IMG/VR virus record: IMGVR_UViG_3300023507_000011
Span: 1 to 24,455 of that record
From: a virus
Length of the DNA: 24,455 nucleotides
Reading direction: 5' to 3' (one strand)
Shown: positions 765 through 20,806 of the stretch, in pieces
Layout of the letters: each line of letters starts with the position of its first letter
How positions within the stretch are numbered: the first letter of the stretch is position 1
The notes under the pieces: model-generated
What the model was told of the DNA's origin: nothing
Seen by the model: the letters and a program-made list of their open reading frames with translations, nothing else
The model's database searches: none
Made by a program: the position numbers and the translations under genes

Positions 765-2638
765 ACAGTAAGACGTATCAAAAGGGGAGGGTACGGAGGG
801 AGAATCCGCTTGCTGAGCTGTTGGCGAAGGAGTTTAAGGCGCATAACGATGTGTTGGCTTTTGCGAAGGACATTTTGGAAATTGAGCTTTGGCCTAAGCA
901 AAAAGAGATACTTCGCAAGTTTTATGACCCTACGAAAAATTATCAAGAGCTTGTTTTATGTGCGGGGATGAGGTGCGTTGATAAGGATTCGTTGGTGATG
1001 ACGCCTGATGGCGAGGTTCCTATTAAGAGATTCAGAGGGAAGGTTGAGACGGGGAAGGGCGCACACGACGCCATCCGGATTGGGCCTGAGTGGCGATGGT
1101 GTATTGAGATTAAGACGGAGCATACGTCGTTGATTGCTTCGGCTGATCACAAAGTTCTTACGCCTGATGGATTTGTTAGGGTGGGTCAACTTTCGGAAAA
1201 CGCAAAAATCGCGACGGACGGGGGGTACGATACGCTAATCGAAAAAACCAATGCAGGACTACGGGAATGTTATGACTTGCACGTTCCGGCTGTTGAGCAG
1301 TACATTGTTAACGGCCTAATAACCCACAATTCAAGTAAGACGTTTCTTGCTTCGATAATTTCGACTTATGAACTTTATAAGCTTCTTCAGTTGCAGGACG
1401 TTCACAGGTACTTCGGGCTACCTAAAGGACAAGAGATCTTTCTAATCAACGTTGCAACTTCAGAGAGGCAGGCACGCGATACCGTGTTCGCGCACACTCA
1501 AGCACGCATAGAGAATTCTGAGTGGTTCCAGACGCAGAACTTTAAGCCCTTATACAACGAGTATAGGTTTAAGACTGGGAAGAGTCGTTCAGGTGATATT
1601 GTCATTAGATCAGAACACTCTAATTCAAGTTCTCTTGTCGGCAAAAGTGCTTTGCTCGTTATCTTCGACGAGTTGGCAAGATTCGTGGATACAAAGGGCA
1701 AGAGCTCTGCTGAGGCTGTTTACGATTCGCTATCACGTGCAACAAAGACGTTTGGACGGTACGGTAAGGTAGTGTCTATTTCGTCACCAATGTACGTGGA
1801 CGATTATATTATGAAGCTGTTGAGGTTGGCCAAAAGACCAGAGTTGCGACATCGTATGTTAGCGTTTCAGCTCGCAACGTGGGAGATTAACCCGAACATC
1901 ACGAGAGAAGACCTTGATGCTGACTTCATTAAGAATCCTGAGGCGGCAATGAGAGACTTCGGCGCTGTACCTTCACTTAGCATCGAGACATTCTTCAAAG
2001 AAGACTGGAAGATTGACCTGTGTCGCAATGAGACTATTGGTAATCCTCTTATCGAGTCAAACGGTAACTTGTACCTAAGAGACGATTGGACGCCACGGCA
2101 GGACTTCGATTACTACTTTGCAGGGGATCCGGCGTACAAAGGAGACGGTTTTGGAGTTGCGCTTGGACATAAAGACGATAATGGCGTGAAAATAATTGAT
2201 TTTGCAGGTCGCTTTCTGCCTCAACGTAAGGAGGGGAGACTTGAGATTGACGTCTTGAATGTGAGTCAGTTTATCATTGACACGATCACGAGAGCGCCTG
2301 TGAAGAAAGTTACATTTGACACTTGGAATTATCCTGAAACTGTTAAGAAGATACGTCTGCACGGTGTAGAGGTCGAGCAACACACAGTTAAGAAGAAAGA
2401 TTACGACGTGCTCAAGGAGCACATTTACAGTGAACCTCCGCTAATTAACTGGTACCCAAATGAAGTACTAGAGGAGGAGTTGAAATCCCTCGAAGCGTTT
2501 TCGAACAACAGGATTGATCACCCCAGAAACGGATCTAAGGACGTATCTGACGCTGTTGCGAATTGCTTGCGTTTAATGATGGAGAGTGAAAATGAAATTG
2601 CTGAGCCACCCGTTTGGTTTGTTTCGAAACGAGCCTAG
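755..2638 (+). CDS. terL: Terminase large subunit (packaging ATPase/nuclease), intein-containing
   Basis: A 627-aa precursor giving a mature protein of about 508 aa after splicing. It is the ATP-driven motor that translocates viral DNA into the procapsid and cuts concatemers. The P-loop is split by an intein: CAGMR (69-73) joins SSKT (193-196) to give AGMRSSKT. Walker B is LVIFDE (301-306, D305 E306) and the coupling motif is SISSP (341-345). The RNase H-like nuclease domain has acidic residues in AGDP (D458), FDTW (D522) and SKDVSDA (D596/D599). Start is the ATG after GAGAGG, overlapping the small subunit gene. The arrangement ATPase then nuclease and the mature size match the family. Function must depend on intein removal, since the ATP site is otherwise broken. 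Confidence 0.96.
   Translation: MPIDSKTYQKGRVRRENPLAELLAKEFKAHNDVLAFAKDILEIELWPKQKEILRKFYDPTKNYQELVLCAGMRCVDKDSLVMTPDGEVPIKRFRGKVETGKGAHDAIRIGPEWRWCIEIKTEHTSLIASADHKVLTPDGFVRVGQLSENAKIATDGGYDTLIEKTNAGLRECYDLHVPAVEQYIVNGLITHNSSKTFLASIISTYELYKLLQLQDVHRYFGLPKGQEIFLINVATSERQARDTVFAHTQARIENSEWFQTQNFKPLYNEYRFKTGKSRSGDIVIRSEHSNSSSLVGKSALLVIFDELARFVDTKGKSSAEAVYDSLSRATKTFGRYGKVVSISSPMYVDDYIMKLLRLAKRPELRHRMLAFQLATWEINPNITREDLDADFIKNPEAAMRDFGAVPSLSIETFFKEDWKIDLCRNETIGNPLIESNGNLYLRDDWTPRQDFDYYFAGDPAYKGDGFGVALGHKDDNGVKIIDFAGRFLPQRKEGRLEIDVLNVSQFIIDTITRAPVKKVTFDTWNYPETVKKIRLHGVEVEQHTVKKKDYDVLKEHIYSEPPLINWYPNEVLEEELKSLEAFSNNRIDHPRNGSKDVSDAVANCLRLMMESENEIAEPPVWFVSKRA
974..1330 (+). mobile_element. Mini-intein (119 aa) in the TerL P-loop
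   Basis: In-frame insertion of residues 74-192 of the TerL precursor. It begins with Cys74 (block A, CVDKDSLVMTPDG), has a block B with ASADHKVLT (His132), a block F YDLHVP..EQYIVNG, and ends in block G NGLITHN with the His-Asn pair. The +1 extein residue is Ser193. No LAGLIDADG or HNH endonuclease domain is present, so it is a splicing-only mini-intein, near the lower end of natural intein sizes. The insertion point lies inside the Walker A motif, a favoured type of intein site. Confidence 0.93.
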
Positions 2639-2650
2639 CTACGCCCCTGC

Positions 2651-2683
2651 TAGAGTTCCTCTGTGTGAGGGGAGAGCCCAAAA
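2651..2683 (+). other. Conserved intergenic hairpin element, copy 1
   Basis: In the 48-bp gap between terL and portal, TTCCTC (2656-2661) pairs with GAGGGG (2667-2672) around the loop TGTGT, followed by AGAGCCCAAAAG. The same hairpin, with the same loop and the same downstream AGAGCYCWAAAG, occurs at 12167-12194 in the gap before the scaffold gene. Base pairs differ between copies but are kept as pairs (for example C:G versus T:A), which favours an RNA structure. Role unknown. Confidence 0.55.
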
Positions 2684-2686
2684 GAG

Positions 2687-4954
2687 GTGAGTGAATTGGT
2701 AGGTTTTAGAGATGCGCTCGGACACACAATCAGAACGACTTTAAGATTAGATGACACTGGACGGCCTTTTGCCATTTTTACAGGATTTCAACTTGAAACG
2801 ATAGATCAAAGCTATACTCTTAAGGATTATCGTGAAGAATTTAGAAACAACGCTTTGGTTAAGCAATCAGTCTTGCTATTAGCAACAATGGCAATAAAAG
2901 GTGGGTTTGAGACGCAAGTACTGCCATACGACCCAAAAGACGATCCGGCCGAATTTTCGGACTTAAAGAGAAAGATCGACCGCAATAACAAGAAGATGAA
3001 TTTAGATTTATCACTGTTCATTGGGGAGGTAAAACGTAGAATTTACGGTTATTGTGGTTTTGAAATAGTGCCGTCTCAGAAGACCAAATTTTTTGATCTT
3101 TTGCCTCTTAGTTCCGAATTACTAGAACCTGATATAGCAGAAGATTACACATTGAAAGGTTGGAAGTACCAGTATGCTAAGGACGGATACTACAAACCTG
3201 ATCAGATATTTCATCTTCATAATACTCCTTTGGAACGAGACTACAGGGGTATTAGTGACATCGAACCTATTATGCAGACATTAGCAACACGCCGCAACTT
3301 ATGGTTCGACATCAAAGAAGCCGCAAAGCGCTTGTGGGCTCCCATCCTTATTTGCAAAATGGATACTTCAGGTTTGAAGAAAGCTGATGCGGAAACAGCA
3401 ATGCAGAAGTTCTCTGATGAGCTAAAACCTGGTCGTAATGTTGTTCATAACAGGTCGATTGATGTTCAGGTAGTCAATATCACACCAGATATTGGGGGGC
3501 TACTGCGCGCGATTGAAAAGTGTGATGAGGACATAATGGGGAACTTTTCAATCCCGCGCGCTTTACTTGGGCGCGAAAAGTGCTTTGACAAAGACACTCT
3601 CATTATGGACGCTGAGACGGGGCGACTAGTCACCATCAAAGAAGCTTATAAGACCGTGAAGAAAATCTTTACACTTGATGAAGATGGACAGTTTAAGATC
3701 ACGGATGATTTCGTAATTTTCCCAATGGGCAAAAAGCAATGTGTCAAAGTTACAATGTCTAACGGTCTGGATATAACTTGTTCTCTTGATCACCCCATAC
3801 TCACTTCACGCGGTTGGGTCTGTGCTGAAGACCTATTACCTGATGATTGGGTCTTTGCACCTATCTCGTTGGAACCTGAAAGTCAAGAGTCAATCGATCC
3901 TGACATAGCATGGATGACAGGTTTTCACCTTGCAGATGGTTCATTCAACACGTTCAAGCAACCCAATGGTGAATTAAGTATTAGATTTTCGTTATCGCAA
4001 GTTGACGGACCAGTAAAGGATCACGCTTCATCAATTCTTGATAAATTTGGCATTAATCATTCAAAAACTGAACAAGGATTATTCATTAACGGTTACGCCG
4101 CAAACAAATTTTATGATGTATTTCCTGTAAGTCTTTGTAAGGCGAAAGACAAGACAATTCCTGATGAGGTTTTTGGTTGGGACGATAATGGAAAGAATGC
4201 TTTTCTGGAAGGCTTTGAAGCAGGAGATGGTCATCGCCAATCAACCAGATTAACACTTTCGACTACATCGAGGAAGTTAGCTGAAGGTTTATATTGGCTT
4301 TTAATGTCGATGGGTAGACATGCAGGTATTTACAAGCATTCCGAGCGCATGTATAACGTTACAGAATATCGCTTCAAGAACAAACCGACACTCACTCATG
4401 TGCCAATCGAGTTGAGTTCACGATCTGCCAAATACCTGAACCAAGCGCTAAAACGTCACCAGGTTAGGGTGCAAAAATTACCTGGAGAATTTGAACATGT
4501 TAAGTTCTTGAAGGTAAAGAGCATCGATTACGTTGGAGAGCGTGAAGTCTGGGATCTAACAGTTAAGGGAACTCACAACGTTGTTGCTAATGGAATCGTG
4601 GCCTCTAACACGACCAACCGTGCAACGTTGGAGTACTCCATTAAAACAGTCTATGATGTGTCGGTAAAAGGAGCACAACAGTACTTAAAACGTGAGGTTG
4701 AATCTCAAATCTATACACCTCAAGTAAGAGAGGAAGGGTTGGAAGATCAAGTGCGCGTTTTGCATAAGTGGAATCCTCTTACTGTTGTGGATATGATTGC
4801 ACTTGTGAAACCCATTGTTGAGTTGATCAAGGTTAATGCCATTGATGTACCCAAAGCATGGGATCTTCTGGGACTGGACGTAACAGAACTTAAAAGTAAA
4901 AAGAAATTTGTAACACAATCAAAGATAGGCGAGTGGATTGAGGAAAATGAATAA
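2687..4954 (+). CDS. Portal protein, intein-containing
   Basis: A 755-aa precursor giving about 412 aa after splicing. The portal forms the dodecameric ring at one capsid vertex through which DNA passes and to which the neck attaches. Portal-like features are the early region LVKQSVLLLATMAIKGGF (57-74), a long helical and beta body, and FSIPRALLGREK (287-298) joined after splicing to TTNRATLEYSI, the conserved portal segment with NRAT. The C-terminus is acidic and helical. It follows terL as expected. The annotated start is GTG 2687 after GGGGAG. A TTG at 2696, five bases after GAGGTGA, is an equally good start and would remove three residues. The stop overlaps the next gene. Confidence 0.9.
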   Translation: MSELVGFRDALGHTIRTTLRLDDTGRPFAIFTGFQLETIDQSYTLKDYREEFRNNALVKQSVLLLATMAIKGGFETQVLPYDPKDDPAEFSDLKRKIDRNNKKMNLDLSLFIGEVKRRIYGYCGFEIVPSQKTKFFDLLPLSSELLEPDIAEDYTLKGWKYQYAKDGYYKPDQIFHLHNTPLERDYRGISDIEPIMQTLATRRNLWFDIKEAAKRLWAPILICKMDTSGLKKADAETAMQKFSDELKPGRNVVHNRSIDVQVVNITPDIGGLLRAIEKCDEDIMGNFSIPRALLGREKCFDKDTLIMDAETGRLVTIKEAYKTVKKIFTLDEDGQFKITDDFVIFPMGKKQCVKVTMSNGLDITCSLDHPILTSRGWVCAEDLLPDDWVFAPISLEPESQESIDPDIAWMTGFHLADGSFNTFKQPNGELSIRFSLSQVDGPVKDHASSILDKFGINHSKTEQGLFINGYAANKFYDVFPVSLCKAKDKTIPDEVFGWDDNGKNAFLEGFEAGDGHRQSTRLTLSTTSRKLAEGLYWLLMSMGRHAGIYKHSERMYNVTEYRFKNKPTLTHVPIELSSRSAKYLNQALKRHQVRVQKLPGEFEHVKFLKVKSIDYVGEREVWDLTVKGTHNVVANGIVASNTTNRATLEYSIKTVYDVSVKGAQQYLKREVESQIYTPQVREEGLEDQVRVLHKWNPLTVVDMIALVKPIVELIKVNAIDVPKAWDLLGLDVTELKSKKKFVTQSKIGEWIEENE
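3581..4609 (+). mobile_element. Intein (343 aa) with LAGLIDADG endonuclease in the portal
   Basis: Residues 299-641 of the portal precursor. Block A starts at Cys299 (CFDKDTLIMD), block B is CSLDHPILTSRGW (His369), and block F is EVWDLTVKGTHNVVANG. Block G ends VASN and the +1 residue is Thr642. Two dodecapeptide motifs, MTGFHLADGSF (410-420) and FLEGFEAGDGHR (506-517), mark a two-motif LAGLIDADG homing endonuclease between the splicing halves. The residue before the terminal Asn is Ser rather than the usual His. Both catalytic acidic residues of the endonuclease (LADG, AGDG) appear present, so it may still be mobile. Confidence 0.93.
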
Positions 4955-6224
4955 GTCAAAAAATCCTGCTGATATGGATAAGGATGAGTTGCTAAGAACT
5001 CATGAGGAATTGCATCGCGCGTTCAAAAAAGGTCTTGACGGCTGGACTAAAGAAGACTTTATCAATTATCACATTCTGGTTCTTGAAGCCATCAGAAGGA
5101 GAGGGTTTCAGCACACCCCAGCGGATGAGCTTGACGAGCTAACAATTAAGGCCAAACGGAAGACTTTTGAAGCCTCGTTGGGCATTGTTAAGATGAGCGC
5201 TGTTAAGGAAGACTTCTTCAAAGAATGGAATCCTGACATGGCATATATGGTTGGCTTCATTATGGCTGACGCCACTATCTTTGTAGCACCAGAAAAGTAT
5301 CAGTGGAGATTGTCCTTCGAAATAGGTCCAAAAGATCTTGATTTGCTTAAATGGTTTAAGGAAAAACTTCAATATGAAGGCGTGATAAGAAAGGTCGCCG
5401 ACAAAACTTCTCGGACGATGCAGATCAATAACAAAACCCTGGTGCAAGGACTTCTCGAAACTGGTTTGAAACCAGATAAGACCGGATTCCCGAAGGTACC
5501 GGACAATCTCATAGTTCATGCGGCACGCGGTTATTTTGATGCGAATGGTTCAGCGTGGACAGTTGGTAATTCATTGATGCTAAGATTTTCCGGTCGCTCC
5601 CCAGTTATTGAAAAATGGCAAAAGATCATAGAGGAAAAGACTGGTGTGAAGCACCGCAAAATCATCAGAACGGCTGGTACCAACATAATTGCTTTTTCCG
5701 GACAGGATGCATTAAAGGTTGCCGAATGGCTTTATAGCGAGGGTGGACATTATCTTGAAAGGAAAAAGGCCCCTTACGACACTGTGGTTACAAGAACTAA
5801 GCAATCAGAGGACCTTGCACCAATTGGACCATCTGGAATAGAGGAGGGTCCTGAAATCAAGTTGGAAGACATACTGCCTTACTTCAAGTCGTTCAAAATG
5901 AGCAAGCCTTTTATCTTTTTGACTGGTGGTTTGGTAAACAATATGAAGACGAAGGGGGATATTGATATACTTATCAGGTGCAGCGAAAATGACTCTTACG
6001 CTAAAGGGATTGTGTTCCGAATAGTACGAATGTTTCCCGAAGACCTGAGAGGTAGGTTGCATTTTATATTTGATGATTCCGGCGAAATGGACGGACATGG
6101 ACCGTTTACGAGTTACGTGCCTCTTTACGAATTCGTAATTGAGGCAAATCCTGGTGAACGGGTTGAAATGAGTGAAGGGCTAATTAAGGTTGGACCCGGG
6201 AGGTATAAAGTTGGAACCAAATAA
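4947..6224 (+). CDS. LAGLIDADG endonuclease fused to a minimal nucleotidyltransferase
   Basis: 425 aa from the ATG at 4947, which follows GAGG and overlaps the portal stop; a TTG at 4938 would add three residues. Three parts are visible. Residues about 12-60 form a helical hairpin (ELLRTHEELHRAF ... EAIRRRGFQH) that recurs in the large polyprotein downstream. Residues about 85-270 are a homing endonuclease with YMVGFIMADAT and ARGYFDANGSAW as dodecapeptide motifs. Residues about 300-400 contain FLTGGLVN..KTKGDIDILI, the GG...DxD signature of the nucleotidyltransferase (pol beta-like) superfamily. No intein blocks flank the endonuclease, so it is a fusion rather than an intein. The substrate of the nucleotidyltransferase is unknown. 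The endonuclease probably invaded a helical-NTase gene. Confidence 0.75.
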   Translation: MNKSKNPADMDKDELLRTHEELHRAFKKGLDGWTKEDFINYHILVLEAIRRRGFQHTPADELDELTIKAKRKTFEASLGIVKMSAVKEDFFKEWNPDMAYMVGFIMADATIFVAPEKYQWRLSFEIGPKDLDLLKWFKEKLQYEGVIRKVADKTSRTMQINNKTLVQGLLETGLKPDKTGFPKVPDNLIVHAARGYFDANGSAWTVGNSLMLRFSGRSPVIEKWQKIIEEKTGVKHRKIIRTAGTNIIAFSGQDALKVAEWLYSEGGHYLERKKAPYDTVVTRTKQSEDLAPIGPSGIEEGPEIKLEDILPYFKSFKMSKPFIFLTGGLVNNMKTKGDIDILIRCSENDSYAKGIVFRIVRMFPEDLRGRLHFIFDDSGEMDGHGPFTSYVPLYEFVIEANPGERVEMSEGLIKVGPGRYKVGTK

Positions 6225-7176
6225 ATTTCCTGCCAAGTTTACTAATGACCACGTGTCGTTATACCTAGTTGGAGCGGAAAAGAGACCGATAGCAGATCAC
6301 GTCGAAGGGGTCATGCTAAATGCTGTAACGGTCAACCCCAATCACGAATGGTTCCAGGAATACAAAGGTATAAAGGTGATGGATAATGGTATATTTGGCG
6401 GTACCGTGCTTTCTGTTGCCGAGCTCGCTGAGAAAGCCCGTCAGGTGCAACCAGACATTGTTGTTGGTCCTGATGTGCTTTATGATGATGATATCCACAT
6501 AAAATCAGTCGAAAGACAGAAAAGGTTTATGAAGGAAAAGTTGCCTGAGAGGACTAAAGTTCAATTGGTGCCACAAGGCAACACGACGGAACACTATGAA
6601 TGGTGCATTTCTCAAATCGTTAAGATGAACCCGGACTATATTGGATTAGGTCGCATGTCAATGAAACTCGCAGGTTATCCGCTAAAAGGTCACTTTCAAA
6701 GAGTGTATGCGCTTAACAGGTTTGAAGAGTTAGGATTGCTTGATGAGATCAGAGATAATGCGATCAAGATCCACGCTCTCGGAATTTCAAAACCATCCGA
6801 GTTCAAGTATCTTAATTACTTCAGCGTATCGTGCGCAGACTCAATGTCATATATTTATTCGTCAATTTATAATCAGATTGTTTGGCCAGGTGATAATTAT
6901 GAAGGCCAAACAAAGATAAATAAGGACGGTTCGATCGTTAGAAAGAAAACAGATACCGACGAAGTGTACGAAGCTAAGCAACGCTTCTTTGCAACTTATC
7001 CAGCAAGCGGTCCTCTTGATGAAAGGCAATTGTGGATTATTAAGAATGTATGGTTGCCTTGCAGAGCTGAGCTTGCAACTAAAAATCACATACGAGAGAT
7101 TGTTGAGGGCGTCGATTTCGAGAAAGAAAAGGACGATACGCCGATATTAGAGAAGCCAAATGGTAAGAAAGCTTAG
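6211..7176 (+). CDS. dpdA: DpdA/TGT-like 7-deazaguanine transglycosylase
   Basis: 321 aa from TTG 6211, chosen because GGGAGGT ends six bases upstream; an in-frame TTG at 6190 lacks such a site. The sequence reads as a TIM barrel of the tRNA-guanine transglycosylase/DpdA superfamily: KVMDNGIFGG (D58, likely catalytic pocket), IVVGPDVLYDD (D88), LVPQGN (119-124), YIGLGRMS, IHALGIS (187-193) and SCADSMSY with D210 in the position expected for the nucleophile. DpdA family proteins exchange guanine in DNA for preQ0 or derivatives. TGT relatives act on tRNA. The viral context, adjacent phosphoribosyltransferase and DUF6884-like domains favour DNA. No preQ0 synthesis genes are in the window, so the base would come from the host or from genes elsewhere. 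The symbol is tentative. Confidence 0.7.
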   Translation: MEPNKFPAKFTNDHVSLYLVGAEKRPIADHVEGVMLNAVTVNPNHEWFQEYKGIKVMDNGIFGGTVLSVAELAEKARQVQPDIVVGPDVLYDDDIHIKSVERQKRFMKEKLPERTKVQLVPQGNTTEHYEWCISQIVKMNPDYIGLGRMSMKLAGYPLKGHFQRVYALNRFEELGLLDEIRDNAIKIHALGISKPSEFKYLNYFSVSCADSMSYIYSSIYNQIVWPGDNYEGQTKINKDGSIVRKKTDTDEVYEAKQRFFATYPASGPLDERQLWIIKNVWLPCRAELATKNHIREIVEGVDFEKEKDDTPILEKPNGKKA

Positions 7177-7738
7177 TTGGGATGAAATTGAAGGTTACGT
7201 AAACAAGCTAGCCTTCATGATGAGAGGAAATCTGCCAGAGGACGCTGTTCTCATTGCTATTATGAGAGGCGGTGCTATCCCGATGGTACTTCTGTCTGAC
7301 AAGCTAGGCATTAAAGAAACAGGCGCAGTATGGATTGAGAGCTATGATGGCGTGACCAAAGGTGAAATCCGCTTTAAAGGAATGACAAGCTTTGATGGTA
7401 CTCCTGTATTTATTGATGATATAGCGGATACGGGGGCTACGATAGAGTACGTTCAAAAGGTTTTGGGCGGTTTCACAGCTATACTCGTTAAGAGACCGAG
7501 CTGTGCGATTCAACCAGATTTTTGCGCATTAGAAATTAATGATTGGGTTGAGTTTCCGTGGTGCAGAAAGGATTCTGAAGGTAAAGGAGAACTCATTTGC
7601 GAGTTCGTCGAAGATTGCAAGTATCCTTGGAAGAATAAAGATAGATGTAATAATTCACTTCGCAGTTTTAACTGTTCTATTTATGAGAAATTTGCCCTGA
7701 AAGCAGGTCGTGAAATAATCATAACGAAGGTGAAATGA
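7160..7738 (+). CDS. Type I purine phosphoribosyltransferase-like protein with Cys-rich tail
   Basis: 192 aa overlapping the transglycosylase gene by 17 bp. VFIDDIADTGAT (83-94) is the PRPP-binding loop of type I phosphoribosyltransferases. IAIMRGGAIP (32-41) is the PPi loop, and NDWVEFPW (127-134) matches the C-terminal segment of xanthine/guanine phosphoribosyltransferases. The family joins a purine base to PRPP. Next to a base-exchange enzyme it could salvage the released guanine or activate a deazapurine, which is inference. After the core, about 58 residues carry Cys at 135, 147, 153, 163 and 172, which may bind zinc or a cluster and is not usual for this family. The stop overlaps the next start as ATGA. 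Confidence 0.8.
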   Translation: MVRKLSWDEIEGYVNKLAFMMRGNLPEDAVLIAIMRGGAIPMVLLSDKLGIKETGAVWIESYDGVTKGEIRFKGMTSFDGTPVFIDDIADTGATIEYVQKVLGGFTAILVKRPSCAIQPDFCALEINDWVEFPWCRKDSEGKGELICEFVEDCKYPWKNKDRCNNSLRSFNCSIYEKFALKAGREIIITKVK

Positions 7739-10700
7739 TGGACGTAGCAGTTTTAATAGTATCCGCACCCAAATTCAATAAGCCTGAAGAAGGGACCCCG
7801 TCCGAGCTTTGGGGTTATTCCTCCAAGGTGATGGGATTCATTTCAGTTTGTGAGGAGAACAATATTCCGTGGGTTTTGATCGATTATAAACACGGCATAA
7901 TTAAGCCTGATCAAAAACTAAAGAACTACTCCAATCCTGAAGCAGAGATTACTCTTCGTGAGTGGCAAAAAATGATTGTTGAGCAGGCTGCAGATCTAGG
8001 TTTGGTCTTTCTTAACGGGGACGGGGGTATAGGAGATCTTAAGAAAAATGTGACTGTTGCCCATGATCACGACGAACTAGTCCAGTTCTTCAAAAACGGA
8101 GAACAGCTTAGTGATAAGAAGTATCCTTTTGCCAAAGAAGGTGCACAGGTTGGTGGCAAGAAAAGAGTTGCAGCCACTTTTTGTGCTGGTTCCAAAGTCG
8201 CTTTGGATGAGGGCACTCCTAAAGAGCTTTGGGCCTCTGCTTCACCCCGCATAGGGAAATTTATTGAACATTGTGAGCGCAACAACATCGATTATGTTAT
8301 ACTGTCATATAAGTACGGTGTTGTTGACAAGAACGAAGTGATCGATAATTACGATATCGGAAGAAGTCAACTCGATATGGATGAGTGGAAACGTCTAGTT
8401 GAATCACGTGCGACAGAACTCGGAATTAAGGAGATTATAGCTTTTGGAATGCTAGCCAAGAATAGTCCTGAGATTTCAAGCACGTTGGAAAATCTAGACG
8501 GTGTTACGCTGGTGTGGGCTGACTCATATGATGAGATCACAGAGTTCTTCTATAAAGACACAACCTTAGACGACTTCGCAAAGCAGAAGAGGAAAACAGA
8601 CGAGAAGGAACAGGAAAAGAAAGACTCATTAAAACTCTCCCCTCACACAGAAGGCACTAAAGCAGCTCTCATTGCGGATGTTGACTCTTACGATCCTGCG
8701 GATGTTAGTGATGAAGTGTTGAGGAATGATCACGCTATTGTTCATGCGTGGTGGGCTACTCTTCTTGCAGGTAAGGAGTTCAAATATACCAAAGAGCAAG
8801 TCAAGCATCTTCATGACTCCATAGCTAAAGAGATGGTTGCTAGAGGTATGGAACACAACTCACCTTTGGCAAATCTTCCTAACGTTAAACAGTTGCAGGA
8901 GATGCCTGAAATCGTGAAGACGTTGGCGTTAGATGAGCTTCAAGGTCTCGCTAAGGTCTTTGAAGAGTTAGGTGCTGACAATTCGATAATAATTAATGAA
9001 TTAAACAGAAGAGGAGGTGAAACAAGTGCCCAGGTACAAGACAGCAGAGGGAGTAGATTGGAGCTCGATTCAGGACAATCAAACTCCGACGTGCGCAGCG
9101 ACGACGAAGGCGGGGACGCCTTGCAAACTGAAGGCGCGACCAGGAAGCAAGTTCTGCGCGATCCATCAGTAGAAGCCAAAAAGAGTTTAGAGGAAGACAC
9201 GGTAGTGCCATCGCGCTTCTTCTATCCTCTTAAAGGTATTGTGGGATACCGCCGCACCGAGAGATACACACCTGAAGGAGTTAAGTCCTTCTTTAAGGAA
9301 ACAGATTACCCACTTATAGTTCAAAAGAAATACGATGGGGCCCGTCACATCATCTGGAAAGACAGTGACAAGGTCACTATTTTGTCTGATGGTGGGCTCG
9401 ATGTTACTGACAGGCTTCCAACTGTTGTAAAAGAGCTTCAGTCTTTTCCGCATCAGGTGTGCTTGGACACGGAGATCGAGCAGTGGGAAAAAGGAGTTCA
9501 TAACGGTAGAGAAATAGTTTCTGGGTACCTTCGGAGTAAGGACCAACCTGTTAATGATAAAGGAATCCTAGTCAATGTTTTCGATATTCTATACTTCAAC
9601 GATCCTAAGATCAAAAAACACGATCTCAACGGCCAGATAGGTGATTTACATAAACAACCTTATAGCTTGAGGCTTCAGTACCTGGAATTGTGTCCATTTA
9701 GGCAGAGCACTCTTGCCCAACCAGAAAGGAACCTGAGGATGAATTTGGCACCTTCATTTGTAGTTAAGAACGGCTCTGAGCTGGTTAAAGAGTTAAAGAA
9801 GGTCGCGAAAGCACCAGGTTCTGAAGGCGCGATGGTCAAGATGGCATCGTCTGACTACCCACTTGATGGTATGACCAATAAGTGGGTTAAGTACAAAACG
9901 ATGGCGGAGGTCCACGTCGTTGTGCTGAAAAGGATCGAAACGCGGACCAAAGGTGTTTATGTTTATGAGGTAGGTTTGGGTTTTACCAGCAACGATTCTG
10001 TGTTCGAAAACGACGTCAAGGAAGTCAAAGGACAGAGATATTTGTTTGTCGGTAAGACTTTGGCGACCAAGGCTTTTGCTGAACCAGGTGAAATCGCAAC
10101 TATTTCTTTCCACACCCTGTTCTTGTATACAGACAGGAAGTCAGGCGCAATACGCATCAGGCTTTACGAGCCTAGGTGGTATGAGCTAAGGAAGGATCAG
10201 ACAACTCCTGACAACATTAGAGAAGCTATCAATATTGCTGAGGGTGCCAAACTTCTGCAGGAGAAGGAACTAACATTGATGAGATTGAGTGGCGCTGATA
10301 TCGTTGATGACGAGCTTCTCCAAATGAAAGGCATGAAGAGATGGGCGGAACAAGGTGGTTCGCTTAGTGTTTCACTTGATGACGTTTACCTTGAAATACC
10401 GCCTGAAAATAAAGTTTACGAGTTTGTCTTTCAACACGAATATCACGGCAAAAGTGCTCATGGTGATCTGAGACTCGAGTTGCCTGACTACCTAATCGGT
10501 TGGACTTTGAATATTTTGCCTGAGGGTGCGATCAAAGAAGACATAACCACGATTGAACAAGCCAGAAAGATTTCTGAAACTGTTAAGTGGAAAGACTACA
10601 ACCAGGATGAAAAAATTCTTACTGAAAAGAAAGATGCAAAAATACCTAAGGGGTGGTTAAGTGTCGAAGGAGAAAGAGGGGACAGAGTATTCGTCATCTA

Positions 10701-12129
10701 CGACAAAGGAACAATCGAATACGGAGCCCAATTGCCGTACTTCCACGAATACTTCATCAAAGGAAAGAAGTTTAGAGGACGTATTGTATTTAGGATGGTT
10801 CCCAACCTAGATAAGGAACCCGATGACGAAAGGGAATTCCTGTGGATGACGTGGAAACCTAAGGACCAAACACCTTATGTGCTTACAAAGAGATCTATTC
10901 AAAAAGGATACAGAACAGATTTCGGAATTTCTGCCTTGCCAATCGAAGTTAGGAAGAAGATTCCGCGTAAGTACCACTATTGGAATGAGAGAGACGCCGA
11001 TAAACGCTTTGAAGTTCGGAAAGAACTAGTCGAAGCTATTGCGAACGGACTTAAGTTCTCGAAGCTTTATAAGGTGGTTGGTGGAAAACATCAGTGGATT
11101 GATGACGTGGATTACGATGAGGCCAAGTTCATCTATAACGCTGAGCTCGAGGATGGTACTTATAAACTGATACCTGTTAACTTCACACAACAGGGTGACA
11201 TTATGCCTACAGTGTTTGAAGTTAAAGACGGTAAGATAAAGATGGCTACTGCCAAGTTCGTTGTTCAGCACCACTGGTGGAAGGCAGCACGAGTGACGAA
11301 AAGACCTGAAGCTTCTGTTGAGCATTACGATATCAGATTTGATTTTGGTCCTAGCACAAAATCACTCGTGCAGTTCGTTTGTGAGAAGAACCCGCTGGTG
11401 ACCGACAGAACAGTTGCCCTGCGAAAACAAGACAGAAACAAATCGTCGTTTAACGCTGGTAGAGGTAAAGTCCAGCAGATTCGACCAGGCACAGCCTTGA
11501 ACCCAACAAAGGATACTCCTGCGTATATTGAGATCATCGATGAAGGAAAGGCCACAATTCACGTGTCAGAGAATGCTTTGATGAAAGTAGAGTTCTTCGG
11601 TAGCAAACTAAAAGGCTTTTGGACCTTTAGGCAGGTTAACAAAGGGGTTTGGGTTGTTGAAAAAGAGGTCTTATCTACTAACGTGAAACAAGCCATGAAA
11701 GTGGGCGAGAGCATTGAGCACGTTTTGCTTGCTGGTTCGGTTATTTCTTACGAAGAGACGAAAGACGGTTTGCTTGTGAAAGGTGGCGCGATTACACACG
11801 GCACCTGGAACGGGCTTTACTTCCCACCTGATGTTATTGAAGAGTCATACGATCTGTTTCCGGGTGTTAGGATCACACTCGAACATGATCAAAAGAGAAC
11901 TGTGGGTAAATATGTTGCTTCTGAATTTAAAGACCAAATGATTTACCTCTCGGCACTTGCAACTGAGCCCGACGTGATTAAAAAAATCAAGAACGGTGAT
12001 ATTTCCGGATTTTCTATTGACGCCTGGATCTCTGTTGACAGAACCAGGCGGATTGTACTCAGAATTGTTGAGTACAATGATGTGTCATTTGTGAAGAATC
12101 CAGCCTGTTCTATCTGTTTATTGACCTAG
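7735..12129 (+). CDS. Polyprotein: 2x DUF6884-like, DNA ligase, 2x 3'-phosphoesterase-like, prohead protease
   Basis: 1464 aa in one open frame. Residues 1-115 and 145-270 are two DUF6884/YaaA-like domains (WVLIDYKHGIIKPD, YVILSYKYGVVDKN). Residues 325-377 repeat the helical hairpin of the endonuclease-NTase protein. Residues 431-490 are a hydrophilic linker. Residues 525-830 are an ATP-dependent DNA ligase: KYDGAR with Lys532, CLDTEIE (576-582), FDILYF, SEGAMVK (696-702), WVKYK (717-721), then an OB fold with EPRWYELRKDQ. Residues 890-1025 and 1175-1310 resemble the LigD 3'-phosphoesterase (HGDLRLEL at 909-916, HYDIRFDF at 1197-1204). Residues 1333-1464 are an HK97-type prohead protease (LEHD His1384, GFSIDA Ser1427, DVSFVKNPA). 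The protease sits just before scaffold and capsid, as expected. It may cut itself free. Confidence 0.85.
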   Translation: MMDVAVLIVSAPKFNKPEEGTPSELWGYSSKVMGFISVCEENNIPWVLIDYKHGIIKPDQKLKNYSNPEAEITLREWQKMIVEQAADLGLVFLNGDGGIGDLKKNVTVAHDHDELVQFFKNGEQLSDKKYPFAKEGAQVGGKKRVAATFCAGSKVALDEGTPKELWASASPRIGKFIEHCERNNIDYVILSYKYGVVDKNEVIDNYDIGRSQLDMDEWKRLVESRATELGIKEIIAFGMLAKNSPEISSTLENLDGVTLVWADSYDEITEFFYKDTTLDDFAKQKRKTDEKEQEKKDSLKLSPHTEGTKAALIADVDSYDPADVSDEVLRNDHAIVHAWWATLLAGKEFKYTKEQVKHLHDSIAKEMVARGMEHNSPLANLPNVKQLQEMPEIVKTLALDELQGLAKVFEELGADNSIIINELNRRGGETSAQVQDSRGSRLELDSGQSNSDVRSDDEGGDALQTEGATRKQVLRDPSVEAKKSLEEDTVVPSRFFYPLKGIVGYRRTERYTPEGVKSFFKETDYPLIVQKKYDGARHIIWKDSDKVTILSDGGLDVTDRLPTVVKELQSFPHQVCLDTEIEQWEKGVHNGREIVSGYLRSKDQPVNDKGILVNVFDILYFNDPKIKKHDLNGQIGDLHKQPYSLRLQYLELCPFRQSTLAQPERNLRMNLAPSFVVKNGSELVKELKKVAKAPGSEGAMVKMASSDYPLDGMTNKWVKYKTMAEVHVVVLKRIETRTKGVYVYEVGLGFTSNDSVFENDVKEVKGQRYLFVGKTLATKAFAEPGEIATISFHTLFLYTDRKSGAIRIRLYEPRWYELRKDQTTPDNIREAINIAEGAKLLQEKELTLMRLSGADIVDDELLQMKGMKRWAEQGGSLSVSLDDVYLEIPPENKVYEFVFQHEYHGKSAHGDLRLELPDYLIGWTLNILPEGAIKEDITTIEQARKISETVKWKDYNQDEKILTEKKDAKIPKGWLSVEGERGDRVFVIYDKGTIEYGAQLPYFHEYFIKGKKFRGRIVFRMVPNLDKEPDDEREFLWMTWKPKDQTPYVLTKRSIQKGYRTDFGISALPIEVRKKIPRKYHYWNERDADKRFEVRKELVEAIANGLKFSKLYKVVGGKHQWIDDVDYDEAKFIYNAELEDGTYKLIPVNFTQQGDIMPTVFEVKDGKIKMATAKFVVQHHWWKAARVTKRPEASVEHYDIRFDFGPSTKSLVQFVCEKNPLVTDRTVALRKQDRNKSSFNAGRGKVQQIRPGTALNPTKDTPAYIEIIDEGKATIHVSENALMKVEFFGSKLKGFWTFRQVNKGVWVVEKEVLSTNVKQAMKVGESIEHVLLAGSVISYEETKDGLLVKGGAITHGTWNGLYFPPDVIEESYDLFPGVRITLEHDQKRTVGKYVASEFKDQMIYLSALATEPDVIKKIKNGDISGFSIDAWISVDRTRRIVLRIVEYNDVSFVKNPACSICLLT
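9026..9172 (+). CDS. Nested small zinc-finger protein overprinted inside the polyprotein gene
   Basis: A 48-aa frame, shifted +1 relative to the polyprotein, starts at GTG 9026, six bases after the strong Shine-Dalgarno GAGGAGGTGA (9011-9020). It encodes CAATTKAGTPCK then ARPGSKFCAIH: the Cys-x9-Cys ... Cys-x2-His pattern (C23, C33, C44, H47) of small phage and archaeal zinc proteins with CxxTTKxGxPC (DUF5763-like). In the polyprotein frame the same DNA gives a Ser/Asp/Gly/Arg-rich linker with no recognisable fold. The nested frame is therefore likely the older, conserved coding sequence, and the polyprotein has read through it. Function unknown; a nucleic-acid-binding role is plausible. Confidence 0.75.
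   Translation: MPRYKTAEGVDWSSIQDNQTPTCAATTKAGTPCKLKARPGSKFCAIHQ
9205..12129 (+). other. Possible internal translation start giving the ligase-protease half alone
   Basis: GTG 9205 lies in frame with the polyprotein, 33 bp after the nested zinc-finger stop, with AGAGGA at 9189-9194 upstream. Initiation here would give a 974-aa protein (MPSRFFYPLKG...) holding the ligase, phosphoesterase-like and protease domains without the DUF6884-like part. This matches the gene order expected if the two halves were once separate genes with the small zinc-finger gene between them. The full-length frame has no stop, so both products could be made. Confidence 0.35.
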
Positions 12130-12278: not shown

Positions 12279-12878
12279 ATGCCAGATGAAGCTGAAGGAG
12301 ATGTAACGGAGCAGGAACTTCAGGAGAAGACCTATCCGCTACCCGACAGTTCAAGAGTACTGAAAGTAAGTGGCTCTGCAATCGACCACATCCTTATAGT
12401 GCCGAAGGGCGTTAAGGTGGAGAGCAAGTCTATTCCGCAGGATGATTCCAAGGATAAGGAGCTTGCTGAAGCCAAAAAGGAGGTCGAGGAAAAGAGCAAG
12501 GAGTTGGCAGCACTGAAGGAAGAACACAGCAAGCTGTCTGAGCAGTTCGAGCTTCTTCAATCGCGCCTCTCTCAGATCGAGGAGGATAAGAAGGTTGAAC
12601 TTGCGAAATCTATCGTCGAAAGCAGGGTCGAAAAAGGCCTAGTTTCCAAGGACGACGCCGAAGATGAAATTACCAAGCTTTCCAAACTGCCTGAGGAAGC
12701 GCTTGTTGTGATGAAGGAAGACACCGTTAAGCTTGCGGCCAAGATCAGTGAGCCTGAGAAGGGTTTCCCGAAAGCTACGGCTTCCGAGGAACAGATACAG
12801 CTTTCCGAGTATCAGAAGCAGTACAATGAGGAAAGGAAGAAGCTTGGTCTTCCGCCTGTTGACTGGGGGTCTGAATAA
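12279..12878 (+). CDS. Capsid scaffold protein
   Basis: 199 aa, very rich in Lys and Glu. Residues about 60-108 form a long coiled coil (KELAEAKKEVEEKSKELAAL and onward), followed by further helices to about 160. The C-terminus carries QLSEYQKQYNEERKKLGLP. Position between the prohead protease and the capsid genes, high charge and coiled coil are typical of scaffolds, which guide capsid assembly and are degraded by the protease. The N-terminal 45 residues look beta-like and may be a separate small domain. The start follows GGAGG. The stop TAA shares its last A with the next ATG. No sequence family is recognised, so the call is by position and composition. Confidence 0.75.
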   Translation: MPDEAEGDVTEQELQEKTYPLPDSSRVLKVSGSAIDHILIVPKGVKVESKSIPQDDSKDKELAEAKKEVEEKSKELAALKEEHSKLSEQFELLQSRLSQIEEDKKVELAKSIVESRVEKGLVSKDDAEDEITKLSKLPEEALVVMKEDTVKLAAKISEPEKGFPKATASEEQIQLSEYQKQYNEERKKLGLPPVDWGSE

Positions 12879-13333
12879 TGACACAGCTTGCAGGAGATAT
12901 AAACAAAACTTTTGAGTACCTCGTGGTGAAGACAACTTCGAAGACCAATACGGCCGTGACCAGAGGGCAGGTTCTTGCCTTCGACACTGATGGTTTTGCT
13001 CCTTGTTCTGCAGGAGATCAGGGACCGTTTCGTGTTTGCCTAGAAACCAAGGCGGCCGGCGGTGCTGGTGTGCAGACGGAGTTCCCTGCACTTGTATATG
13101 GCGTGGTGTCGGTAACCGCTAATGGTGCTGCAACCAATATCAATGTTGGCGACTACGTTGTTTCTGACGACAATGGGGCTGTAAAGGCCTTTGTGGCGCC
13201 TGACGTTGGAGCTACACCGACCCAAGCATCCATAAATGCGGCACTCCTGGACCTGCTTGAAATAGTAGGACAGGCAAATCAGGCTGCTACCACAGATGGT
13301 GCAGTTATTCAGATCTTCCTTGGAGGTAGGTAA
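12878..13333 (+). CDS. Capsid cement/decoration protein (DUF2190-like)
   Basis: 151 aa, Gly/Ala/Val-rich and predicted nearly all beta. Motifs such as VTRGQVLAFD, GPFRVCLETKAAGG, ALVYGVVSVTA and INVGDYVVSDDNGAVKAF match the pattern of small phage decoration proteins of the DUF2190 type, which sit on the capsid surface and stabilise the shell against internal DNA pressure. It is translated from an ATG overlapping the scaffold stop and ends two bases before the capsid gene, so capsid and cement are made together. Two Cys (about 43 and 53) are present but no metal motif. The exact family is not certain. Confidence 0.7.
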   Translation: MTQLAGDINKTFEYLVVKTTSKTNTAVTRGQVLAFDTDGFAPCSAGDQGPFRVCLETKAAGGAGVQTEFPALVYGVVSVTANGAATNINVGDYVVSDDNGAVKAFVAPDVGATPTQASINAALLDLLEIVGQANQAATTDGAVIQIFLGGR

Positions 13334-13335
13334 AA

Positions 13336-14169
13336 ATGGCCCCTGGAGCAGTATTCGATACAAGCAGAATAGCTGACATCACTACGAGAGTTGTGGTGGA
13401 CGAAGTCCTGGACCTTGCTCAGCCGGATCTCAATCTTCGGGATCTGTGTAAGATCGTAAAGGTTCCCAAGCTGGTTGGTGATATCAGCATCGCAGCCAGG
13501 CTGACCGGACAGGAAAAGGTTTCGGAAGCAGAGTCTGCTGACCTGTCCAACAATGAGTTCAGCAAGATCAGCTTTGACCTATGGAAAAACGTCGTGCATG
13601 TTGCCATCACAGATGAGTCCAAGATGAGGGCTAATATTGATGTGATGCAGATCAGCATGCAGGACGCTGGTAAGGAAATTGCCAGGATGGAAAACAAGCA
13701 GATCGCTGAAGCTCTGGAGGTCAGTGGTGGTATCTCTACTATAGCAGGTACCGACTGGGACGACGATACGAACGATCCTGCAAAGGACATCATGGCCGCT
13801 CAGGGTCAGATCCTAAATGAGAAGAAGGGCTACAAGCCTGACGTGATTGCCATGCATCCGTTGACTTACTCTTCACTAGTCGCAAACGAAAACGTGAAGA
13901 AGTTCATGGAGTATGGTACTATCATAAAGGATGGTGGCTTGCCCAACATTATGGGTCTGAAAACTGTGGTGGATCCGTATCTGACGGATGGTCAGGCTAT
14001 TGTGCTTACCACAAAGGCGCCTGTGTGCGTGCTCGGTATCGGGCCCACTGAAGGTGAAAAAATCAGGGACGGAAGAAGGGGCCTGAACGAGTACGTTATC
14101 AGGCAGTACCTGCAGCCTAAGCTCGTGATCCCAGACGCTGCCAGAATCCTGACAGGTCTGCACGGTTAA
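13336..14169 (+). CDS. Major capsid protein (HK97 fold)
   Basis: 277 aa, a compact HK97-fold size. After a short N-terminal arm the sequence has the elements of this fold: VSEAESADLSNNEFSKISFD (E-loop region, about 62-81), a long spine helix with ISMQDAGKEIARMENKQIAEAL (106-127), and P- and A-domain segments GYKPDVIAMHPLTYSSL and VVDPYL..GQAIVLTTKAPVCVLG. It ends with RRGLNEYVIRQYLQPKLVIPDAARILTG, typical of capsid proteins. It lies directly after scaffold and cement genes, has GGAGGT upstream of its ATG, and is followed by a terminator. The precursor shows no long delta domain, consistent with a separate scaffold. Confidence 0.92.
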   Translation: MAPGAVFDTSRIADITTRVVVDEVLDLAQPDLNLRDLCKIVKVPKLVGDISIAARLTGQEKVSEAESADLSNNEFSKISFDLWKNVVHVAITDESKMRANIDVMQISMQDAGKEIARMENKQIAEALEVSGGISTIAGTDWDDDTNDPAKDIMAAQGQILNEKKGYKPDVIAMHPLTYSSLVANENVKKFMEYGTIIKDGGLPNIMGLKTVVDPYLTDGQAIVLTTKAPVCVLGIGPTEGEKIRDGRRGLNEYVIRQYLQPKLVIPDAARILTGLHG

Positions 14170-14194
14170 GGGCACTCCGCCCTTTTAAATTTTA
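14168..14194 (+). terminator. Hairpin-T terminator after the capsid gene
   Basis: AAGGGC (14168-14173) pairs with GCCCTT (14179-14184) around ACTCC, followed by TTAAATTTTA. A short GC stem then a T-rich tract directly after the capsid stop fits an intrinsic-type terminator, which in archaea mainly depends on the T tract. It would isolate the abundant scaffold-cement-capsid transcript. Confidence 0.65.
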
Positions 14195-14195
14195 G

Positions 14196-14294
14196 ATGGC
14201 AAAAAATCCATTTGCTGCAGGCGGCTGTAACATGCCCGGACCTGCGTTCACTCTAGGAGGTGACAAACCAAATGGGACTAATAAAACTGGTTAG
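14196..14294 (+). CDS. Possible small protein after the capsid operon
   Basis: An ATG right after the terminator opens 32 codons (MAKNPFAAGGCNMPGPAFTL and on) ending in TAG at 14292-14294, overlapping the next gene's start by 23 bp. It is Gly/Pro/Asn-rich with one Cys and has no Shine-Dalgarno. It fills the only part of this 100-bp gap that lacks other features. No homologue is recognised, and the overlap plus missing RBS leave this weak. Confidence 0.25.
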   Translation: MAKNPFAAGGCNMPGPAFTLGGDKPNGTNKTG

Positions 14295-14715
14295 CAATAT
14301 CAAAGACGCTATTTACGATGTTTGGGATAGCGGCAATCAATCTATTCGAACTTCTGGTTCTTTGACGATTACTTCAGGTAAACTTTCACCAGTAACTCTG
14401 CTCAATGCCGTCAATGTTACTGATACAGTTGAGCATAACTCTACGTCACAGGACGTGACTGACTATCAAGAGAAAACAGTTTACGTGGGTATTGCTGTAA
14501 CAGGCACACCGACGTCACTAGATGTTTGGATTGACATAAGTCCTGACGGTGTGAACTGGTATCAGTTAGGTACACCGAAATCATATACAGCCGCTACGGA
14601 TGACGTTTTGGCGTTCACCACTCATGCTGAGTTTATGCGTGTGTCATACCAAGGTACCGGAACAGACGCTTCAAATTACTTCACTATAAGCGCTACCGTA
14701 TCTGCTAAATCGTGA
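14272..14715 (+). CDS. Beta-rich virion surface protein
   Basis: 147 aa from ATG 14272, which follows GGAGGTGA by nine bases; the upstream GTG at 14260 lies inside that ribosome site and is rejected. After a helical start (GLIKLVSNIKDAIYDVWD) the chain is Thr/Ser/Val-rich and alternates in beta pattern. LDVWIDISPDGVNWYQLG resembles the repeated WxxSxDGxxW-type beta-sandwich edge found in phage surface and fibre proteins. It has no signal peptide or membrane segment. Position after the capsid and before a beta-helix spike suggests a capsid- or fibre-attached sandwich domain. Family not recognised. Confidence 0.6.
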   Translation: MGLIKLVSNIKDAIYDVWDSGNQSIRTSGSLTITSGKLSPVTLLNAVNVTDTVEHNSTSQDVTDYQEKTVYVGIAVTGTPTSLDVWIDISPDGVNWYQLGTPKSYTAATDDVLAFTTHAEFMRVSYQGTGTDASNYFTISATVSAKS

Positions 14716-14725
14716 GGTCGTATCA

Positions 14726-16267
14726 ATGGCTCGAATCGATCAAGCATACGTTGATAAAGGAGTAACAGCTAACAACGTTGCTGTAAATGGAACAGACCTT
14801 GATACTATTCTCGACAGCAATTCAATAAACCTAAATGATGAACGCTGGACTGTCGTATCTAATGTTGAAGAGCTAGAAGAGGCTCTTGCACGTAAGGACA
14901 GGTACATCTTCCTTAGGAAAGGCCCAACATATAATTTAACAGGAACAATCACACCTTATGATGGTCTCAATCTCATTGGAGAGTGTCTGCCAAGTGATTC
15001 TGCAAATTCAAACAATGATGGGGTAATGCTGAAATATAATGGCAGTGTAATTAAATATATTGCAACAATAGAAGCTGCGGGGTTAGCATCTCTTCCGTCG
15101 AGATTTGATGGAACAATAACTCTTACAGCAGCAAAAACAGTTAATGCTGGTGATATAGTAATAGTCGATAGTCATGCATATCTAATTGACCAGAGTTCTA
15201 CGGGTACTGCCGTTTATCTCAGAGACTTTATTGTTAAAGACGGTGCAAGTACGTATATTGATTTCGTCAAAAACTCACTTAAAGATTTTGTAATGAAAAA
15301 TATACAACTCGATGATGGAGATACTGCGGAGAGTATATATATCTATGGTGCCGTCAACATTCGAATTGAAAATGTTAGGACAGTTGAGTATTCATATATG
15401 CTTGTCAATTTGAATTATGCTGTTGATGCATATTTTGATAACATAGAGGTTAATTACTATGACTACGGTGGTTTTGAGATAGTGTCTTGTAGTAATATAA
15501 CTATTAGAAACAATGGGAGAATATTTACAGGCATAGGAACAAATGAGATTGTTTATTCTTATTATCTTAGTCATTTTGTTGTTGAAAATTGCAGAGGAGA
15601 TATTAGATGCGAGGATAGTATATACGGTGTTATCGATAATTGTGTATCACCGACTATCATTTCATTAGGTGGCTCAGAGAATGTTATAGTTAAGAATTGT
15701 ATTGCCAAATCATCTTTTTATGCCGTATATACACAAGATTGTGTTTTAGATGGATGTGTTTCGTATTCAAGCTCTACACCATTTATTATATTTTATTCAG
15801 ATAATGCACTTGTGACAAAATGTGATGCACCAAACGCTTCGACATATATTGATGATACTGGTGCGACTAACCAGATGATATTTAACAACAGGTGGCAGCG
15901 TGATGATTTATATTGGGATTATTTAAACAATAGAATCGGTATTGGGACAACTTCGCCAACTTCGAAACTGCATGTAAACGGCTCATCTGCATTTAAGGTT
16001 GTAATGGTAACATCGGCAACATATACCGCTGGTGATGAAACAGTCATATTAGCAGATTGCACAAGTAATGCAATAACAATAACATTACCTGATGCGACAA
16101 CAGTTGCTGGCAGATTCTATTACATCAAAAAAATAGACTCCTCATCCAATGCTATTACTGTTGATGCGGGAACACAAACAATAGATGGTTCTCCCACAGT
16201 AACGATATCTGCACAAAATGATTCAATGATGATTGTGCCATATGGAAGTAATTGGTACATATTATGA
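14726..16267 (+). CDS. Beta-helix spike/fibre protein
   Basis: 513 aa. Residues 40-90 form a pectate-lyase-like entry (VVSNVEELEEALARKDRYIF ... LNLIGECLPS). Residues about 95-390 are a right-handed beta-helix with Asn/Cys ladders such as NIRIENVRTVEYS, NITIRNNGRIF, VVENCRGDI, VIVKNCIAKSS and CVLDGCVSYSS. GIGTTSPTSKLHVNG (405-419) is a signature of tail-fibre and spike C-termini. Residues 430-513 are a beta domain ending in PYGSNWYIL, of the type that caps fibres. Likely role: receptor or glycan binding on the virion surface. No catalytic residues could be assigned. The gene is more A/T-rich than its neighbours, suggesting exchange. It sits beside the capsid instead of after the tape measure, so it may be a head fibre. 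Confidence 0.8.
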   Translation: MARIDQAYVDKGVTANNVAVNGTDLDTILDSNSINLNDERWTVVSNVEELEEALARKDRYIFLRKGPTYNLTGTITPYDGLNLIGECLPSDSANSNNDGVMLKYNGSVIKYIATIEAAGLASLPSRFDGTITLTAAKTVNAGDIVIVDSHAYLIDQSSTGTAVYLRDFIVKDGASTYIDFVKNSLKDFVMKNIQLDDGDTAESIYIYGAVNIRIENVRTVEYSYMLVNLNYAVDAYFDNIEVNYYDYGGFEIVSCSNITIRNNGRIFTGIGTNEIVYSYYLSHFVVENCRGDIRCEDSIYGVIDNCVSPTIISLGGSENVIVKNCIAKSSFYAVYTQDCVLDGCVSYSSSTPFIIFYSDNALVTKCDAPNASTYIDDTGATNQMIFNNRWQRDDLYWDYLNNRIGIGTTSPTSKLHVNGSSAFKVVMVTSATYTAGDETVILADCTSNAITITLPDATTVAGRFYYIKKIDSSSNAITVDAGTQTIDGSPTVTISAQNDSMMIVPYGSNWYIL

Positions 16268-16276
16268 GGTGAGAGC

Positions 16277-16807
16277 ATGAGTTATTTTGGTTCTGTGACA
16301 GTTAAAGACGATGGTGGTAATAGAGCGTCTGTTGACCCTTATGGTGGGCAAGTGCTCATTGACATGCTGCACCATGAAGTTCATGAGGGTGGTGCTTTTA
16401 GTGCATCATTTATGCAGTCTGTTTTAGCTGGCAACAACCTGGATGTACTAATAGTTACTGGTGCTAATGAGCTTCATCTCAGGTTTAGAGTTGCGATACT
16501 AAAGAAACCAATGCATGTGCACTTGTATGAAGATACAACTGTATCCGCTAATGGCACATCAGTACCGATATACAATGCTAATAGAACATCATCAACTACA
16601 TCAACAACATCAGTTTACTATGGTCCAAGTGTAACTGGTGTTGGAACAGAGTTGGAGTTAGTTTACTTACCAAAAGAAGACATGCTTGGTGTAACACCAT
16701 TGCCGGAGTGGATATTGAAACCGAACTCAATATATATGCTGAGGGTTGAGAATGCATCAGGAAATGACGCAGACATTGGTATTGCTCTAACCTGGTATGA
16801 GGAGTGA
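16277..16807 (+). CDS. Conserved virion protein (head/fibre-associated, unknown role)
   Basis: 176 aa with GAGGTGA before the ATG. The opening SVDPYGGQVLIDMLHHEVHEGGAFS (residues 18-42, read in part) and later TVSANGTSVPIYNANR (about 90-105) and SVYYGPSVTGVGTEL are features seen in a widespread family of phage structural proteins next to fibres. The segment before the end (EWILKPNSIYMLRVENASGN) and ALTWYEE are beta-strand rich. Together these suggest a compact beta-sandwich oligomer. Neither the fold nor role is established here, but the location among surface proteins makes a capsid- or fibre-attachment role likely. The last codons overlap the ribosome site of the next gene. Confidence 0.65.
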   Translation: MSYFGSVTVKDDGGNRASVDPYGGQVLIDMLHHEVHEGGAFSASFMQSVLAGNNLDVLIVTGANELHLRFRVAILKKPMHVHLYEDTTVSANGTSVPIYNANRTSSTTSTTSVYYGPSVTGVGTELELVYLPKEDMLGVTPLPEWILKPNSIYMLRVENASGNDADIGIALTWYEE

Positions 16808-16809
16808 AG

Positions 16810-17049: not shown

Positions 17050-17050
17050 A

Positions 17051-19537: not shown

Positions 19538-19538
19538 A

Positions 19539-20795: not shown

Positions 20796-20806
20796 GAGGT
20801 TGAAAG

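Follow-up and report, generated by a model that had tools for sequence, protein, structure and literature searches.

A zinc-knuckle gene nested in the linker of a viral ligase polyprotein and apparently gained by insertion

Introduction

Nested genes on the same strand are well known in viruses. Most viral overlaps are thought to pair an ancestral frame with a de novo one, and the proteins of de novo overlapping frames usually lack homologues (PMC8227390). Can an overlap also be made when a gene of a known family enters a gene that is already in place? This question is raised by the virus record IMGVR_UViG_3300023507_000011, a single metagenome-derived contig that was analysed over its whole length of 24,455 bases (hereafter, the window). 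A 48-aa open reading frame (ORF) with a zinc-knuckle pattern lies there in the +1 frame of a long polyprotein-like ORF, whose own frame is called frame 0. The features of the locus are as follows.

7735..12129, + strand: polyprotein-like ORF of 1464 aa, with two DUF6884 domains, helical repeats, an ATP-dependent DNA ligase, a LigD_N-like region and a protease-like C-terminus
8599..9015, + strand: helical repeat region, ending in IINELNRRG, delimited by frame-0 alignment with L078 and L079 (related IMG/VR contigs)
9012..9020, + strand: Shine-Dalgarno (SD) sequence AGGAGGTGA, a perfect 9-nt anti-SD match, predicted to be unstructured
9016..9171, + strand: frame-0 charged linker over the zinc ORF, most of it without an identified homologue
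9026..9172, + strand: +1-frame ORF of 48 aa, GTG at 9026 and TAG at 9170-9172, with the zinc knuckle C-x9-C-x10-C-x2-H
9172..9225, + strand: first part of the ligase N-terminal motif EAKKSLEEDTVVPSRFFYPLKG, conserved in frame 0 in relatives
9205..9207, + strand: GTG, earlier proposed as a separate ligase start; the SD-like sequence upstream is weak

Results

Virus record and gene map

The window matches ANMV-1, a Methanomicrobiales-associated virus and archaeal MAGs, which suggests that the host belongs to the methane-cycling archaea. The following genes precede the polyprotein-like ORF, and head and tail genes are also present in the window.

755-2638: terminase large subunit
2687-4954: portal-like gene
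4938-6224: gene with a nucleotidyltransferase-like C-terminus
6190-7176: DUF6610-like gene
7160-7738: phosphoribosyltransferase

By inspection, the gene at 4938-6224 has a LAGLIDADG-like stretch, flanked by a helical repeat and the nucleotidyltransferase-like domain, and this stretch is common to L078 and L079. In L079, a long, intein-like insert interrupts the DUF6610-like region (about 6530-7716); the near-identical L078 lacks this insert. Shine-Dalgarno sequences in the window are weak (3-4 nt) for the genes from 755 to 12129, which often overlap, and mostly 5-9 nt for those from 12279 to 21598. A slippery heptamer, A AAA AAC, occurs at 21577-21583, close to the 3′ end of the ORF 21269-21598, and the −1 frame after it is open to 21810, directly 5′ of a long tape-measure-like ORF; the region 21269-21810 has the appearance of the programmed −1 frameshift usual for tail chaperones (G/GT).

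The small ORF and its zinc knuckle

The ORF that the earlier note had described from GTG 9026 was confirmed. Its Cys and His codons fit the pattern C-x9-C-x10-C-x2-H (putative ligands C23, C33, C44 and H47), and its product has family matches. Starting instead at the GTG at 9017, which is in frame, would lengthen the ORF from 48 to 51 codons. Against zf-TRM13_CCCH (PF11722), with a gathering cut-off of 20.9 bits, the ORF scored 21.1 bits (E 2.3e-4) from the start at 9026 and 20.9 bits from 9017; this match is marginal, spans half of the profile (positions 14-29) and is no evidence on TRM13 function. The match to HGG_STG (NF041373) is weak, covers positions 1-25 of 38 and, at 18.8 bits (E 9.5e-4), falls below the curated cut-off of 29 bits; that to DUF5763 (PF19067) reaches 12.8 bits, below the gathering cut-off of 26.3. 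A PHROG terminase small subunit also matches weakly (E 0.006), and over these four families the E values range from 2e-4 to 0.09. Furthermore, the ORF falls within an informal group of phage TKAGTPC-type zinc-knuckle proteins, which is defined by C-x9-C with a TKxGxPC core, followed by C-x2-H, in a small protein or N-terminal domain.

The knuckle alignment consisted of the zinc ORF and five viral proteins. Because these five were fetched with the pattern TKAGTPCK, that core is common to them by construction; the last Cys and the His were not part of the fetch pattern. The viral proteins L063 and L064 end one residue past the His, as the zinc ORF does, and the phage knuckle proteins are encoded directly 5′ of the terminase or are annotated as terminase small subunit. 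From the six-row alignment, AlphaFold modelled the core of the zinc ORF product (residues 26-50) at a pLDDT of about 90, and 25 residues, chiefly over the knuckle, exceeded 90. Searching solved structures by sequence gave no match, scanning with the zinc peptide pattern gave matches in unrelated contexts only, and no phage DNA similarity to 9000-9215 was found.

The family matches indicate that the zinc domain is real and belongs to a recognisable family, whose members are standalone or N-terminal in terminase small-subunit-like phage proteins, and the putative ligands point to zinc binding by the 48-aa protein. Since related knuckles form the N-terminus of terminase small-subunit-like proteins, the product is probably a small nucleic-acid-binding accessory, whose predicted role most likely belongs to the module for head/packaging or to that for DNA processing; the terminase link is at most a suggestive clue to this function. 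A further zinc-knuckle-like motif, CQRSTSTPTGSPCSKVATLPFTVCSDH, was seen at position 10259 of locus L106, far from the ligase.

In the 1.19 Mb of loci that were examined, the tight knuckle motif occurred elsewhere only in L063 and L072, both of which had been fetched by searching for the knuckle motif, and in first-order Markov DNA it was absent (0 in 3.67 Mb and in 1.26 Mb), a simple null model. The GC content of the zinc segment differs from that of the window (57.8% vs. 43.7%) and ranks within the top 22 of 24,308 equal-size windows.

The start signal

The internal Shine-Dalgarno sequence claimed for this ORF is borne out by AGGAGGTGA, which stands 5 nt upstream of GTG 9026. The window has two 9-nt anti-SD matches, of which this is one; it ties for the best SD among 20 listed gene starts in the window, and its 9 nt are the longest match among 33 same-strand out-of-frame starts (ORFs of at least 40 aa), where the runner-up has 6 nt. 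The SD and the start are evidence independent of the Cys/His motif. The combined evidence supports the small ORF as a genuine coding sequence for a zinc finger, preceded by a real start signal. The small protein is probably translated from the polyprotein mRNA, with ribosomes initiating internally at GTG 9026.

The polyprotein frame across the overlap

Within the polyprotein, the ATP-dependent DNA ligase is well above its threshold (DNA_ligase_A_M, 69 bits; cut-off 26.2), the DUF6884 match falls below the cut-off and the LigD_N-like region is a weak match. The DUF6884-like domain (7735-8598) is present in two copies in the window and in one copy in L078 and L079. The C-terminal region is conserved in relatives; its protease label comes from position and inspection of the sequence and is named by no family library.

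Frame 0 is open across the whole zinc ORF, and both frames are therefore open over the common stretch. Homology in frame 0 ends at base 9015, inside the Shine-Dalgarno sequence of the zinc ORF, and restarts at base 9172, where the zinc ORF stops. The peptide EAKKSLEEDTV, which starts at base 9172, matches the pre-ligase motif of relatives (e.g., EAQKSYEEDAVKPLRFVVPLKG); its score exceeds that of shuffled linkers (P 2e-5) and is reached by 1 of 3,946 proteome 18-mers, a set that includes the query itself. The earlier note had placed a linker between the helical and the ligase halves; the charged linker stands, with its boundaries corrected to 9015 and 9172. The ligase half had been thought to begin near 9205, and this start was abandoned because frame-0 conservation extends upstream to 9172. 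No frame-0 start codon was found between 9172 and 9205; therefore, a ligase begun at GTG 9205 would lose the EAKKSLEEDTV motif. The frame-0 starts further upstream (9058, 9091 and 9121) lack a good SD.

Scans with single proteins, for the linker region and for the half upstream of it, gave no matches, and alignments were needed. Inside the overlap, EGATRKQVLRD resembles EYAPRIKILRD of L098 (shuffle P 0.007; 0.16 and 0.69 for two others), which hints that the old linker could reach into the zinc ORF.

Relatives of the polyprotein

In L078 and L079, the DUF6884-helix-helix-ligase protein is encoded by one ORF without a zinc finger, and the linker is 28 aa long, compared with 65 aa in the window. 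Gene order in the window is shared with L078 from the terminase to the major head protein, and with L079 as far as the ligase region, where the L079 contig ends. A survey of 37 ligase ORFs in relatives, in which some loci are one virus fetched twice, found 33 that extend more than 60 aa N-terminally; in the remaining four, the matched frame opens within the ligase. No relative with the zinc insert was found in the viral-contig scans or in one genome-contig scan.

Four lines of comparison, namely the single ORFs of L078 and L079, the alignment to 9015, the motif at 9172 and the ligase survey, indicate that frame 0 is really read through the zinc ORF. Because the zinc ORF appears genuine, with a start signal, and the polyprotein frame runs through it, the proposal that one DNA stretch codes for two proteins is supported as the best reading of the locus. 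Under simple null models, the open state of frame 0 is unsurprising by itself with the codon usage of the zinc ORF (P 0.26), but surprising with the virus's usual codon usage (P 0.0017).

A strong, in-frame Shine-Dalgarno sequence with a GTG, AAGGAGGTGAAACAGGTG, occurs between the helical repeats in L078 (4668-4684) and L079 (9200-9216), and it could yield an internally initiated helix2-ligase product. Common ancestry with the SD of the window was considered; because the two differ in the sequence past the start and in where they lie with respect to the helices, convergence on the SD consensus is likely.

Discussion

The gap in frame-0 homology between 9015 and 9172 holds the Shine-Dalgarno sequence and the complete zinc ORF, and insertion is therefore the simplest account. 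The starting state would have been a DUF6884-helix-ligase protein that was already fused. Its linker between the helical and ligase halves may then have gained an insert of about 155 bp, compact and GC-rich, that comprised the Shine-Dalgarno sequence and the 48-codon zinc-knuckle gene, with a length change that preserved the old frame. The old frame would have remained open through composition, and perhaps also through selection, with the insert now translated in that frame as a charged and flexible linker, and ribosomes starting at GTG 9026 on the same mRNA would produce the small protein. We consider this whole account, a mini-gene that arrived in the linker of a protein fused beforehand and is read in both frames, to be probable, with considerable room for doubt. 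The direction of the event looks like insertion, with the small gene as the newcomer. We suggest more tentatively that the mini-gene was inserted ready-made, with its own ribosome-binding site, and made the linker dual coding at once by a route opposite to overprinting.

The most serious alternative, although we judge it unlikely, is that the insert is a relic of a former zinc-finger gene that was recruited as a linker, so that the small protein is either not made or without function. The single occurrence of the insert agrees with such a relic, but the SD, the start, the four ligands and the stop are all intact, and the SD belongs to the strongest class in the window.

Still less probable is the history that the earlier note preferred, in which three genes (A, a zinc finger and a ligase) stood in a row until A lost its stop, so that translation of A continued across the zinc gene and into the ligase. 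This history would explain the layout of the zinc ORF, in which an SD, a start and a stop of its own are spaced as tightly as is typical of genes, and neighbouring genes do overlap. However, under this history the ligase should start at 9205 and relatives should be unfused or carry the zinc gene, and none of this was seen. Comparison of related viruses for separate A and ligase genes turned up one ORF in L078 and L079. Because these two are fused without a zinc gene, almost all ligases of relatives carry fused N-terminal domains, and a conserved ligase motif precedes 9205 without an intervening frame-0 start, stop loss through the small gene is not needed. As one lineage was compared closely, it is possible that the fusion did run through a zinc gene that the lineage of L078 and L079 later lost.

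We regard as very improbable a reading in which the knuckle is in truth a domain of the polyprotein, shifted out of frame by a pair of compensating indels, either biological or sequencing errors. The polyproteins of relatives are single ORFs, and frame-0 homology flanks the segment on both sides, as this reading would have it; nevertheless, it needs two indels and leaves the exact arrangement of SD, start and stop as a coincidence, and homologous knuckles such as L063 and L064 often end one residue past the His, like the zinc ORF. Finally, a spurious +1 frame that is open by chance is scarcely credible, since synonymous recoding of the frame-0 peptide, a simple null model, leaves a 51-codon +1 frame open in 24% of trials, but an open frame with even a loose Cys/His pattern has a chance of 1.9e-4, and the motif, the family match and the SD are jointly very unlikely.

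The insertion reading offers a concrete, testable example of a way in which compact viral genomes may gain genes without gaining intergenic regions, and it also serves as a warning, since ordinary annotation would overlook such a nested gene.

Among known systems, the polyproteins of L078 and L079 are alike in gene order, in the one-ORF DUF6884-helix-helix-ligase arrangement and in an internal strong SD; they differ in the single DUF6884, the 28-aa linker, the lack of the zinc ORF and an SD that is in frame and placed elsewhere. The ATP-dependent DNA ligase of ANMV-1 (AJP62006.1) is homologous and likewise has a C-terminal extension and a fused N-terminal domain, but that domain is nucleotidyltransferase-like, which in the window is found in the gene 4938-6224, and the zinc ORF is absent. 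The CxAxTKxGxPC...CxxH family (HGG_STG, DUF5763, zf-TRM13_CCCH and PHROG 10899) shares the Cys/His spacing and the TKAGTPCK core, and its members L063 and L064 are also small proteins ending just past the His; unlike these families, the zinc ORF lacks the HGG tail, is nested in another gene and scores below the HGG_STG and DUF5763 cut-offs. Viral overprinting (PMC8227390) resembles this locus in that one stretch encodes two proteins on the same strand, with the internal gene fully nested in the +1 frame. According to the classical criterion, however, the nested frame should be de novo and without homologues, and the host frame ancestral over the same stretch, whereas here the nested frame has a known domain with family matches and the host frame at 9016-9171 has no convincing homologue. 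The nested gene comes from a domain family already known, and relatives show its host gene in its absence; acquisition therefore seems to be the origin of this overlap, and the old frame seems to have taken up the inserted stretch as a linker. If this is true, the insertion of mini-genes would be a route to overlapping genes that is the reverse of overprinting.
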